Assembly (NCBI GenBank): GCA_018667995.1
Contig: JABIQT010000013.1
Span: forward strand, 1-10,367
Source: Candidatus Latescibacterota bacterium
GTDB taxonomy: Bacteria > JAAXHH01 > JABIQT01
DNA: 10,367 nucleotides
Direction: 5' to 3'
Positions 1,377-7,427 of the stretch are shown here, in pieces. The notes under the pieces were generated by a model. It was given only the letters and a program-made list of their open reading frames with translations, was not told the origin of the DNA and did no database searches. The translations under genes and the position numbers were made by a program. Within the stretch, counting starts at the first letter, position 1, and each line of letters starts with the position of its first letter.

Positions 1377-1901
1377 CTATCCACCAAACATTGGAATCTT
1401 TGATCCACACGAAACCGCGTGTGCAAGTTGCTCATATTCCTCTGATGAGATAGAGGGGCCTTCCTTTGTGCAGGCCTTATCGTATGCAGCTGTGAGTGCG
1501 GTGGAGATATCTTCCGGTGTTCTACCTTCAATATCCTGACGATGTAATACCCCGAGTACCTCTCCATTTTTCAGAAGCGCCACAAAGGGAGACGAAGGAG
1601 GGACATCGCCAAGGTACTGGTCACGCAGATGCGCTACAGCAGCTTTATCCTGGCCGGCGAAGACAGTAGTAAGATGGTCGGGTATCACCTTATTCTGCGC
1701 GGATAAGGTGACGCCAGGGCGTGCACTGCCTGCGGCGCAGCCACATACACTATTTATCATCACAAGCACGGTCTCATCATTCTTCGGACCGAGAATGCGG
1801 TCTACCTCATCGGGCGTTGTTAATTCTTCGAAACCGGCTGACGTCAATGCGTCACGCATGGGTTGTACCGCGATGGGATCGTAGGTAGGCTGTAGTGACA
1901 C
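1377..1901 (-). CDS. Bacilliredoxin, BrxA/BrxB (YphP/YqiW) family
   Basis: Thioredoxin-fold protein whose characterised Bacillus relatives remove bacillithiol from S-thiolated proteins in the cytoplasm. The family's CXC active site is seen as NSVCGCAAGSARPG (C53, C55), followed by TVFAGQDK (79-86), PPSSPFVALLKNGE (101-114) and an RQDIEGRTPEDI segment (121-132), all in the family order. Canonical members end near residue 145 with an aromatic and a Cys; here C144 fits that end, but about 30 residues follow (EEYEQLAHAVSCGSKIPMFGG region) with an additional Cys at 165. GTG is the start because AAGGAG sits seven bases upstream. It lies 126 bases after the Rrf2 regulator in the same direction, so co-transcription or a shared redox theme is plausible. 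Whether this organism makes bacillithiol is unknown; the family is also found where other thiols are used. Confidence 0.93.
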   Translation of the reverse strand: MSLQPTYDPIAVQPMRDALTSAGFEELTTPDEVDRILGPKNDETVLVMINSVCGCAAGSARPGVTLSAQNKVIPDHLTTVFAGQDKAAVAHLRDQYLGDVPPSSPFVALLKNGEVLGVLHRQDIEGRTPEDISTALTAAYDKACTKEGPSISSEEYEQLAHAVSCGSKIPMFGG

Positions 1902-2027: not shown

Positions 2028-2558
2028 TCAAGATTTCAAGATCTTCATGTCCTGAAGTTCTTCTGGTTCAAGATCCCCTGCTTCGGATTGCCCTGTCACT
2101 GTCTGGTGACATAGACTTTCGACGCAGATTTCTTCTTGCAGCAGGTCTCTGAGGGTGATACCCGCCAGCATACGTGATATGTATCCCTCTACGGCATTCC
2201 ACATGGGCCTGATACCACATTCACCAACGTGGATACATACCGCCCTCTGGCCAGAATACTGCTTACAGAGTTGATCTCCTGGGCTGTTCAGAACTCCCGT
2301 ATCTTCGCAAAGAGCTGCCAGCACCTGCCCTGCAGTAATACGTTCGGGCTCTCGGCTCAATGTGTATCCACCCTTGACGCCACGTATACTATCGACTAAG
2401 CCTTCGTGTCGCAGACACATAAGTAACTTTTTCACATAATCTGTGGAAAGCCCTTCGCGGTCCGCGATCGTGCGACTTAGCAATGGACTCCCGCCATGGT
2501 CTCTTGCCAGCTGGAGCATGCATCGTAGTCCGTATTCTTCCTGCGCCGTTACCTTCAT
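2028..2558 (-). CDS. Rrf2-family transcriptional regulator with cysteine triad (IscR-like)
   Basis: DNA-binding repressor or activator of the Rrf2 family, several of which sense iron-sulfur status, nitric oxide or thiols. The N-terminal winged helix aligns residue for residue with E. coli IscR over at least the first 45 positions (MKVTAQEEYGLRCML; recognition helix LSTDYVKKLL, 37-46; wing RGVKGGYTL, 59-67). The recognition residues differ from IscR: D40, K43 and K44 instead of S40, E43 and Q44. A cysteine triad, C98, C108 and C114 (C-x9-C-x5-C), occupies the place of the IscR [2Fe-2S] ligands C92, C98 and C104, so cluster binding is likely but the spacing is different. The 176-residue length is slightly above the usual 130-165; the tail is acidic and has two further Cys (in EEICVESLC). 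ATG has GGAG eight bases upstream. An IscR-like dyad over its own promoter points to autoregulation. Exact ligand and regulon are unknown. Confidence 0.92.
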   Translation of the reverse strand: MKVTAQEEYGLRCMLQLARDHGGSPLLSRTIADREGLSTDYVKKLLMCLRHEGLVDSIRGVKGGYTLSREPERITAGQVLAALCEDTGVLNSPGDQLCKQYSGQRAVCIHVGECGIRPMWNAVEGYISRMLAGITLRDLLQEEICVESLCHQTVTGQSEAGDLEPEELQDMKILKS

Positions 2559-2893: not shown

Positions 2894-2922
2894 TTGACTA
2901 AGGTTGCGGATCTCTGTATATC
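2894..2922 (+). promoter_or_regulatory. Sigma-70 promoter of the cold-shock protein gene
   Basis: TTGACT (2894-2899) and TATATC (2917-2922) are separated by exactly 17 bases, a strong vegetative-type promoter preceded by AT-rich sequence. The start site would lie near 2929, giving a leader of about 140 bases before the TTG start, a long leader as is typical of cspA-type genes. Confidence 0.85.
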
Positions 2923-2979
2923 TGGGTAGAAATCAGCAAAGTTGAGATGGGTCTCCTGTGCGATCGAACTAAAAACGTC

Positions 2980-3022
2980 CCGGCAAGGATCGGAGTTTTT
3001 TGATCCCTGCCGGTTTTTTTTT
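2980..3022 (+). terminator. Intrinsic terminator inside the cold-shock leader (candidate attenuator)
   Basis: CCGGCAAGGATC (2980-2991) pairs with GATCCCTGCCGG (3002-3013) in 11 of 12 positions and is followed by nine T (3014-3022). This is a full rho-independent terminator, yet it lies between the only good promoter (2894-2922) and the coding start at 3070. Only 47 bases remain after it, with no convincing second promoter. Either it is a regulated attenuator, or it ends a small RNA of about 95 bases. A competing pairing, CGATC (2961-2965) with GATCG (2988-2992), possibly extended by CTC with GAG, would break the left arm, but it is weak. The preceding A-run (2971-2975) may make it work on the minus strand too. 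Confidence 0.88.
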
Positions 3023-3069
3023 AGAGAGTTCAGCTTGGGAATTTCAAGATTTAAAGGTGGTGAGAACAG

Positions 3070-3270
3070 TTGGCAACAGGCAAAGTAAAGTGGTTTAACG
3101 ACTCCAAGGGCTTTGGCTTTATCGAGCATGACGGTGGTGATGATGTATTCGTCCACTACTCGGCTGTCCAGGGCGAAGGCTTCAAGTCTTTGGCCGAAGG
3201 CGACGACGTCGAATTCGATATTACTGAAGGTCCTAAAGGACTTCAGGCCGCAAACGTGGTCAAGCAGTAG
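3070..3270 (+). CDS. Cold-shock domain protein, CspA family
   Basis: Small cytoplasmic single-stranded RNA/DNA-binding protein of the OB-fold cold-shock domain; family members melt RNA secondary structure and some act as transcription antiterminators. The 66 residues are the family's normal length. [16 protein letters not shown] (4-19) includes RNP1, and DVFVHYSAV (25-33) includes RNP2, with Tyr in place of the usual Phe. The C-terminal [10 protein letters not shown] is standard. The start is TTG: the family N-terminus begins exactly there, no ATG is in frame nearby, and AAAGGTGG/GGTGAG lies 5-9 bases upstream. The gene stands alone between a leader terminator and a 3' terminator, so its expression is probably set by the long leader. 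The TTG codon may further limit translation. Confidence 0.96.
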
Positions 3271-3306
3271 ATTTTGAGGGTCGTTAAGGCTCTTATCATA
3301 GAAGTA

Positions 3307-3346
3307 ATGGGTGCCAATACTAATCGTGTTGGCACCCATTTTTTTT
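3307..3346 (+). terminator. Intrinsic terminator of the cold-shock gene
   Basis: ATGGGTGCCAATAC (3307-3320) pairs with GTGTTGGCACCCAT (3326-3339) over 14 positions with one G-U pair, around a 5-base loop, and is followed by a run of T to 3346. It lies 36 bases after the stop codon, a textbook rho-independent terminator. Confidence 0.95.
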
Positions 3347-5493: not shown

Positions 5494-6486
5494 ATGGAGA
5501 AAAGAACTGTTCAGGTAGGGGGTGAGACCATAGAGGTGCCTGATGTGAGCAAATCTTGGCTCATGGTCGCAGCAGGTGTCCTTGTTGCCCTCTGGTTGGT
5601 GTTTTCGGCCTTCTATACCGTAGATGCTGACGAGGTGGGCGTGATTCAAAGGTTCGGTCGATACACGCGGACGACCGAGCCCGGCCTACATTTTAAACTG
5701 CCTTTTGACATGGAGACCGTGGTCAAAGTCAAGGTGCAGCGTGTCTTCAAGGAGGAGTTTGGCTTCCGAACCGCTCAGGCGGGGGTTCGTACCGAGTATG
5801 CCCGGGGCGACTTTACGGGTGAGTCCTTGATGCTTACGGGCGATTTGAATTCTGCTGTAGTGGATTGGATCGTTCAATACCGTGTCAAGGATCCGGTCAA
5901 GTATCTGTTTCAGGTACGAAACGTTGTTGAAACTCTGAGAGACGTGTCGGAATCAGTGATGCGTGAGTTGGTAGGTGATCATAGTGTGGACGAGGTCATC
6001 GTTCTCAGTCGTCAGGACATTGAAACGCTGGCCCAGGTGGCTACGCAGAAGCTCCTGGATGATTTTGAGACCGGTATCGATATCGTGACCATAAAGCTAC
6101 AGGACGTAAATCCTCCACCTCCTGTGCAGCCGGCCTTTAATGAGGTCAATGAGGCCCGGCAGGAGAAGGAAAGAATCATCAATGAGGCTCTGGAAGCATA
6201 CAACAAGGTCGTGCCGCAGGCGCGCGGTCAGGCCGAGCAGACCATTCGGCAGGCAGAGGGATATGCAACGAACAGGGTGAACCGAGCACAGGGCGACGCG
6301 GAGAAATTCAATGCCGTGCGTCAGGAATACAACAAGGCAAAGAACGTAACTCGCCGTCGCTTGTATCTCGAAACCATGCTCGACATCATTCCCTCGCTCG
6401 AAAACATCTACATCATTGATGAATCACAGAAGGGTGTCATTCCGCTTCTGCAGTTTCCGGCTTCGTCGAAAGGGGTGCAAAATTGA
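5494..6486 (+). CDS. hflK: Protease modulator HflK (SPFH/band-7 membrane protein)
   Basis: Subunit of the HflK-HflC inner-membrane complex, which assembles with the FtsH protease and limits its access to membrane substrates. The 330-residue protein has a short cytoplasmic N-terminus, one transmembrane helix (about 22-42, WLMVAAGVLVALWLVFSAF), then the SPFH/band-7 domain starting ADEVGVIQRFGRY with EPGLHFKLPF (62-71), a DVNPPPPVQPAF turn at the end of the domain, and a long Ala/Glu/Arg-rich coiled coil (about 217-285). The C-terminus includes IYIIDESQKGVIPLLQF, typical of HflK. It lacks the Gly-rich N-terminal extension of E. coli HflK (about 420 residues). AAGGAG lies six bases before the ATG. 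The last codons overlap hflC by four bases, so the two are coupled. No ftsH is in the window. Confidence 0.95.
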   Translation: MEKRTVQVGGETIEVPDVSKSWLMVAAGVLVALWLVFSAFYTVDADEVGVIQRFGRYTRTTEPGLHFKLPFDMETVVKVKVQRVFKEEFGFRTAQAGVRTEYARGDFTGESLMLTGDLNSAVVDWIVQYRVKDPVKYLFQVRNVVETLRDVSESVMRELVGDHSVDEVIVLSRQDIETLAQVATQKLLDDFETGIDIVTIKLQDVNPPPPVQPAFNEVNEARQEKERIINEALEAYNKVVPQARGQAEQTIRQAEGYATNRVNRAQGDAEKFNAVRQEYNKAKNVTRRRLYLETMLDIIPSLENIYIIDESQKGVIPLLQFPASSKGVQN

Positions 6487-7427
6487 AATGGTCTAATCTG
6501 GCGACAGCCGGGGTAGCGGTCCTATTGCTGCTGGTTCTCTCGGCATCGACCTATACAGTCGACGAAACAGAGCAGGTTATTATTCTCCAATTTGGTAAGC
6601 CCGTGGGGGAGCCCATTACGGAAGCTGGACTCCACTTCAAAATGCCGTTGATCCAGGACGTGATTACGTTTGATAAGCGCATACATGAGTGGGACGGCGA
6701 TGAAAACCAGATTCCCACGTCTGATAAAAAATACATCTGGGTGGATACATTTGCCCGGTGGCGCATTGTTTCGCCTCTCAAGTTCTACCAGTCGGTGAAC
6801 AATGAGCGCAACGCCCAGAGTCGTCTCGACGACATTATAGATAGTGCTACCCGAAACTATGTTTCTGAGAATCTCCTCATTGAGGTGGTTCGAAACAGCA
6901 ATAGGGAGCTGCAGATTACCATCGAGGAGGCTGAAGGGTTCGGGTTGGAGAATACCACTGATCTTCAGATTGAGCAGGGCCGAGAGAAAATCACGGAGTT
7001 GATCCTCGCCAAGGCCGCGGAAACCATGCCTCAGTATGGCATCGAGCTTCTCGACATGCGCATTAAGCGTATGAACTACATTGAGGAAGTGCGACAGAAG
7101 GTGTACGAACGGATGATCTCCGAACGCAAGCGTATCGCCGAGAAGTTTCGTTCAGAAGGCCAGGGCCGCAAAGCTGAGATCGATGGTGAACGTGAGAAGG
7201 AAATGCAGCGGATTACATCCGAGGCCTATCGTACCGCCCAGGAAATCAAGGGTAAAGCCGATGCGGAGGCAACGCGCATATATGCCTCGGCTTTCAACAG
7301 GGATCCTGAGTTCTACTCCTTCATTCAGACGCTCGAGACCTATAAGAGCACGCTGGATAAGAAAAACACGACCATGATTCTTAGCACCGATAGTGACTTC
7401 TTGAAATACCTCAAGAAAGTCCGGTAA
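6483..7427 (+). CDS. hflC: Protease modulator HflC (SPFH/band-7 membrane protein)
   Basis: Partner of HflK in the membrane complex that encloses and regulates FtsH. The 314 residues comprise a single N-terminal transmembrane helix (about 7-24, ATAGVAVLLLLVLSAS), the SPFH/band-7 domain (TEQVIILQFGKPV, then EAGLHFKMPLIQDV, DKRIHEWDGD and YIWVDTFARWRI), the conserved GIELLDMRIKRMNY segment, a charged coiled coil (about 200-265), and the C-terminal FYSFIQTLETYKSTLD motif of HflC. The start is TTG inside TTGA, sharing bases with the hflK stop, with AGGGG seven bases upstream; the nearby ATG at 6488 is out of frame. The overlap and uncommon start suggest translational coupling that keeps the two subunits in step. 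Confidence 0.95.
   Translation: MKWSNLATAGVAVLLLLVLSASTYTVDETEQVIILQFGKPVGEPITEAGLHFKMPLIQDVITFDKRIHEWDGDENQIPTSDKKYIWVDTFARWRIVSPLKFYQSVNNERNAQSRLDDIIDSATRNYVSENLLIEVVRNSNRELQITIEEAEGFGLENTTDLQIEQGREKITELILAKAAETMPQYGIELLDMRIKRMNYIEEVRQKVYERMISERKRIAEKFRSEGQGRKAEIDGEREKEMQRITSEAYRTAQEIKGKADAEATRIYASAFNRDPEFYSFIQTLETYKSTLDKKNTTMILSTDSDFLKYLKKVR

Follow-up and report, generated by a model that had tools for sequence, protein, structure and literature searches.

In the leader of a cold-shock gene (csp) of a Candidatus Latescibacterota bacterium, a hairpin directly followed by a run of nine T is read here, with a probability of about two in three, as an intrinsic terminator acting as a transcription attenuator. 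We favour this reading because the strength of the terminator exceeds chance expectation, the upstream gene is divergent, the arrangement is conserved in relatives and leader terminators recur before csp genes in other phyla. The sequence analysed (the window) is a stretch of 10,367 nt from a genome bin of 6.06 Mb in 1165 contigs. The csp product is a cold-shock domain over its whole length (PF00313, CSD; E 4.7e-30, residues 3-65 of 66), with orthologues of 88-89% identity in genus g3 of the same order and 83% in G013, and a 511-nt gap separates the gene from a divergent Rrf2 regulator gene, itself adjoined by a gene for a PF06491 disulphide isomerase family protein (1377-1901, minus strand). 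Relatives were drawn from a phylum sample of 16 genomes, and csp genes with a TTG start and a AAAGGTGGTGA ribosome binding site are referred to as family-A. The features of the locus are as follows.

2028-2558, minus strand: Rrf2 regulator gene, upstream of csp and divergent from it
2894..2922, plus strand: putative promoter, TTGACT (2894-2899), 17 nt, TATATC (2917-2922), inferred from the sequence and from the -35 kept in relatives
2929..3069, plus strand: predicted csp leader of about 141 nt, placed from the promoter position and the TTG start
2944..2955, plus strand: local hairpin GAGA-UGGG-UCUC, overlapping element P and specific to the window (RNAfold, transcript cut before the 3' arm of the terminator)
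2948..2961, plus strand: pyrimidine-rich element P, core UCUCCUGUGC, from alignments; candidate strand of an antiterminator, or contact site for protein or RNA
2980..3013, plus strand: terminator hairpin, from fold statistics and conservation
2980-2991, plus strand: terminator 5' arm, CCGGCAAGGATC
2992-3001, plus strand: terminator loop, 10 nt
3002-3013, plus strand: terminator 3' arm, GATCCCTGCCGG
3014-3022, plus strand: U-tract of nine T, read from the sequence
3053..3064, plus strand: ribosome binding site AAAGGTGGTGAG, in which AAAGGTGGTGA is invariant across all family-A leaders
3070-3270, plus strand: csp gene with TTG start, 66-aa cold-shock protein (PF00313)
about 3306-3346, plus strand: the csp gene's own ordinary 3' terminator, from the terminator scan and hairpin statistics

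The leader element has the anatomy of an intrinsic (Rho-independent) terminator, a stable GC-rich hairpin directly followed by a U-run, and termination itself is predicted from it. Its stem comprises 11 pairs and one mismatch (A2986-C3007); about 50 nt separate it from the predicted start of transcription on one side, and 47 nt lie between the U-tract and the TTG codon on the other. For the 56-nt element the folding energy is -22.8 kcal/mol (z -4.2), a stability reached by 0 of 200 shuffles, and when the 511-nt gap was shuffled 1000 times no hairpin matched the -20.6 kcal/mol of the native one with at least 7 T among the 8 nucleotides after it, the best shuffle reaching -15.3. These values confirm the proposal of the first-pass annotation that a complete terminator stands between the promoter and the csp start codon. 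A simple terminator scan had missed the hairpin because its loop limit was 8. Three other strong terminators were found in the window, each directly 3' of a gene (the sigma factor gene, csp and the second Band_7 gene), so that the leader terminator is the sole strong one placed 5' of a start codon. The Band_7 (HflK/HflC-like) genes form an adjacent pair at 5494-7427 on the plus strand, and a strong terminator of their own follows at about 7525.

The orientation of the neighbouring genes constrains which RNA could reach this terminator. Since the Rrf2 gene runs the opposite way, the terminator must act on a plus-strand RNA begun upstream of 2980, which most simply begins inside the 511-nt gap; and since the upstream gene is divergent, the terminator serves no upstream gene. 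It thus has the position expected of an attenuator, between the inferred promoter and the start codon. The -10 element (TATATC) is imperfect and weak and is absent from the promoter scan calls; the TTGAC -35 element is found at a matching distance in every family-A order-mate. From this promoter position we predict a transcription start near 2929 and a terminated RNA of about 94 nt.

The window genome and eleven genomes of genus g3 have a family-A gene, G013 has two (L014, L112), and a second copy is present in G012 (L113). All order orthologues found, along with two further paralogues, keep the -35, the pyrimidine element, the hairpin, the U-tract, the ribosome binding site and the TTG start. 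Except at N, the terminator 5' arm (GGCANGGATC) does not vary; changes in the 3' arm are mostly tolerated by the pairing. The U-rich tail differs by lineage: T9 in the window, T10 in L113, TTTTTCTAT in g3 and a weak TATTCTG in L112. Family-A leaders also carry a small AUCG/CGAU hairpin, which is degenerate in the window. In the family-A alignment, 95.5% of cells in the terminator and small hairpin are paired versus 26-52% when the structure is slid, and two pairs show double changes, so that covariation of the predicted stems is real but thin. The first-pass annotation had staked its idea on stem and promoter being kept in close relatives, and both hairpin and -35 are present in all family-A leaders found, with no loss seen. 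Within 3023-3060, where that annotation had allowed for an alternative transcription start, the scan called no promoter-like site. Such conservation across the phylum is, like the position of the element, what marks an attenuator, and at the level of sequence the conserved layout settles that the predicted leader terminator is no accident.

Terminators also precede csp genes well beyond the order, and a scan of csp loci turned them up in many other phyla. Counted over distinct csp leaders, they occur in 24 of 31 (77%) in the phylum of the window, in 40 of 68 (59%) in one Gemmatimonadota order and in 13 of 59 (22%) across scattered other phyla, this last figure being nearer a census and possibly including terminators of co-directional upstream genes; shuffles gave rates of 3.1-7.9%. 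Among csp paralogues of eight chosen genomes the count was 6 of 14. A first locus set, ranked by similarity to the window Csp protein so that its 42% is not a census, had a terminator upstream of 30 of 72 csp genes versus 16 of 113 other genes, and the position of most of these 16 marks them as a csp gene's own 3' terminator. In an orthologous csp group of Gemmatimonadota the terminator lies mostly at -75 to -97 and is followed by two more hairpins. Among 20 divergent sequences of these leaders, compensatory change is seen at 13 of 20 pairs, and the covariation score is 0.437 versus 0.065-0.134 in slid versions; the 20 sequences were preselected as terminator-positive, which inflates the pairing of helix 1, and the unselected helix 2 also covaries. 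Other csp paralogues of the same Gemmatimonadota order (most of L212-L230) are mostly without a terminator. No convincing leader terminator was detected in the Bacillus-group csp loci examined, the weak L100 and L111 matches being long irregular stems. Where other phyla have a leader terminator, the sequence upstream of it is unrelated, and at gathering score no Rfam family, the cspA thermosensor RF01766 included, matches the window or 20 loci.

Several further csp leaders were noted in passing. Each of the five csp paralogues of G039 (L029, L127, L128, L129, L246) has a leader terminator, and four of the five have related stems of the type CCGTAAGAGTTTTG...CTCTTACGGG. A second csp family of the window's order (L016, L114-L120, L135-L140) has a long outer helix, CUCCCC-GACAACC/GGUUGUC-AGGGAG, that encloses a leader hairpin with a weakly U-rich tail (GTATTTATT or TTATTTTC). 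Many Geobacter/Desulfuromonadales csp loci (L035-L064) share a long conserved stretch, GTTTCGGAAGTTTTTGCAGAACG ... CTGCATCAGACTCCGGAAACT, in the upstream ~200 nt, with ends that can pair; it looks like another undescribed structured csp leader, and the two loci tested, L040 and L048, gave no terminator and no Rfam match.

A candidate target of a regulator within the family-A leader is element P, which reads UUUCUGUCUCCUGUGC or UCUGUCUCCUGCAUG in order-mates. When transcripts were cut before the 3' arm, P paired with the 5' arm and loop of the terminator in four lineages out of five, at -12 to -16 kcal/mol; set against shuffles, p for this pairing ranged from 0.016 to 0.81 by lineage and the pairing is weak in the window, where P prefers the local GAGA/UCUC hairpin. 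The alignment, limited to five family-A lineages, holds no compensatory changes in this helix. Folding models nevertheless make it a plausible antiterminator in the relatives, one that would explain why the loop bases AGAA are conserved in most lineages, and a better candidate than the competing pairing of 2961-2965 with 2988-2992 put forward by the first-pass annotation. That pairing does exist in the window; it is not conserved and is unavailable in L112, L113 and L014, and we discarded it as a general antiterminator. P also pairs with the sequence past the terminator (Q) and with the csp ribosome binding site, the latter pairing being the one given by RNAalifold. An outer P-Q helix was rejected as a common architecture, with a median p of 0.31 versus 0.51 for csp 3' terminators and 6 of 48 cases at p<=0.05, which amounts to a trend, and the pairing of P with the ribosome binding site is weaker than P-arm and P-Q in every lineage. 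Fold predictions at 10, 25 and 37 C gave no separation between the states. The evidence fits a structured, conserved leader rather than one particular switch.

Part of this evidence could be accommodated by a separate small RNA gene, whose ~94-nt product would pair through its conserved UCUCCU stretch with ribosome binding sites while csp was transcribed by leak-through or from its own promoter. P is conserved by sequence and not by covariation, it resembles an anti-Shine-Dalgarno seed and its RNAalifold partner is the ribosome binding site of csp itself, all as such an RNA would have it; yet P, the terminator and csp occur together in each relative and paralogue, the scan called no promoter-like site between terminator and csp gene, where just 47 nt are left and part of these is ribosome binding site, and other phyla keep the terminator without the upstream sequence. 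We therefore consider a small RNA gene unlikely. About as unlikely, and if anything a shade more so, is a constitutive, unregulated partial terminator that does nothing but set csp dosage from a strong promoter. The variable quality of the tail (T9, TTTTTCTAT, TATTCTG) would suit it, as would the fact that the regulator site is a candidate only, but the invariant 5' arm, the conserved P and the inner hairpin of the order-mates exceed what a bare terminator needs.

Least probable of all is that the hairpin serves as mRNA structure (an RNase III site, or a stability or translation thermosensor) and not as a terminator, the T-run being a U-rich patch bound by Csp. The Listeria cspA leader acts at translation (PMC8079631), and P can pair beyond the terminator and with the ribosome binding site; however, almost all relatives, and other phyla too, retain a GC-rich hairpin with a U-rich run directly behind it, and a processing hairpin needs no such run. 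For attenuation of csp by the leader terminator, which the first-pass annotation had listed among several possibilities, conservation among relatives and recurrence across other phyla give good support.

Under attenuation, RNA polymerase would start near 2929 and either stop near 3022, with release of a ~94-nt leader RNA, or continue into csp, and termination at the hairpin would presumably be partial and regulated. As regulator we tentatively propose, at somewhat less than even odds, a cold-shock protein and/or temperature acting on the pyrimidine element upstream of the hairpin. In the order-mates P would pair with the terminator 5' arm while the 3' arm was still to be transcribed, Csp bound to single-stranded P would block this antiterminator and restore termination, and cold or a shortage of Csp would favour read-through. 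Negative feedback by Csp binding at P is the scheme we prefer, though we would not wager on it at evens. That Csp would act at the terminator of its own leader is a reasonable idea, since Csp proteins change termination elsewhere.

Cold-shock proteins melt RNA hairpins and alter termination at other genes, and the known routes of csp control are mainly mRNA stability and translation, together with Rho in E. coli. E. coli CspA, CspC, CspE and CspD weaken termination at tested sites (PMC9765468), and in B. subtilis CspB/CspD apparently promote it at several sites (PMC8307031). The nearest precedent comes from E. coli cspB and cspG, whose reporter fusions revealed termination by Rho within the coding region or 5' UTR (PMC7815308); there early termination limits csp expression, as it would in the window, whose leader has an intrinsic hairpin and U-run instead. 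The leaders of E. coli cspA (PMC3890552; RF01766) and Listeria cspA (PMC8079631) are likewise structured, with possible refolding by temperature, but they are thermosensors that control translation and, in the parts of these reports covered here, no terminator is described, whereas the window leader carries a terminator and lacks an Rfam match. Leader elements, including cold-shock boxes, also set csp expression in B. subtilis cspB/cspC, where CspB/CspD influence terminators elsewhere (PMC8307031) and the Bacillus-group loci examined here lack a convincing leader terminator. Surveyed intrinsic-terminator attenuators (PMC2965389) have the same order of promoter, leader terminator and downstream gene, and a candidate alternative pairing is seen in the relatives here; the gene class differs, since csp and cold shock are both absent from the main text of that survey. 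The open literature searched yielded no account of a csp leader with an intrinsic terminator, and we regard the novelty of such terminators as provisional.

The finding extends further than first stated, to a conserved leader terminator of csp genes in several phyla that most likely acts as an attenuator. It is quite possible, though less likely than not, that intrinsic-terminator attenuation is a widespread, uncatalogued form of csp control (in Latescibacterota, Gemmatimonadota, Nitrospirota, deltaproteobacterial lineages and others) in which Csp sets termination in its own leader. Were csp leaders of several phyla to share a conserved hairpin-type terminator, direct autoregulation at a terminator could be tested in culturable Gemmatimonadota, and these leaders would constitute a class of leader RNA absent from Rfam.
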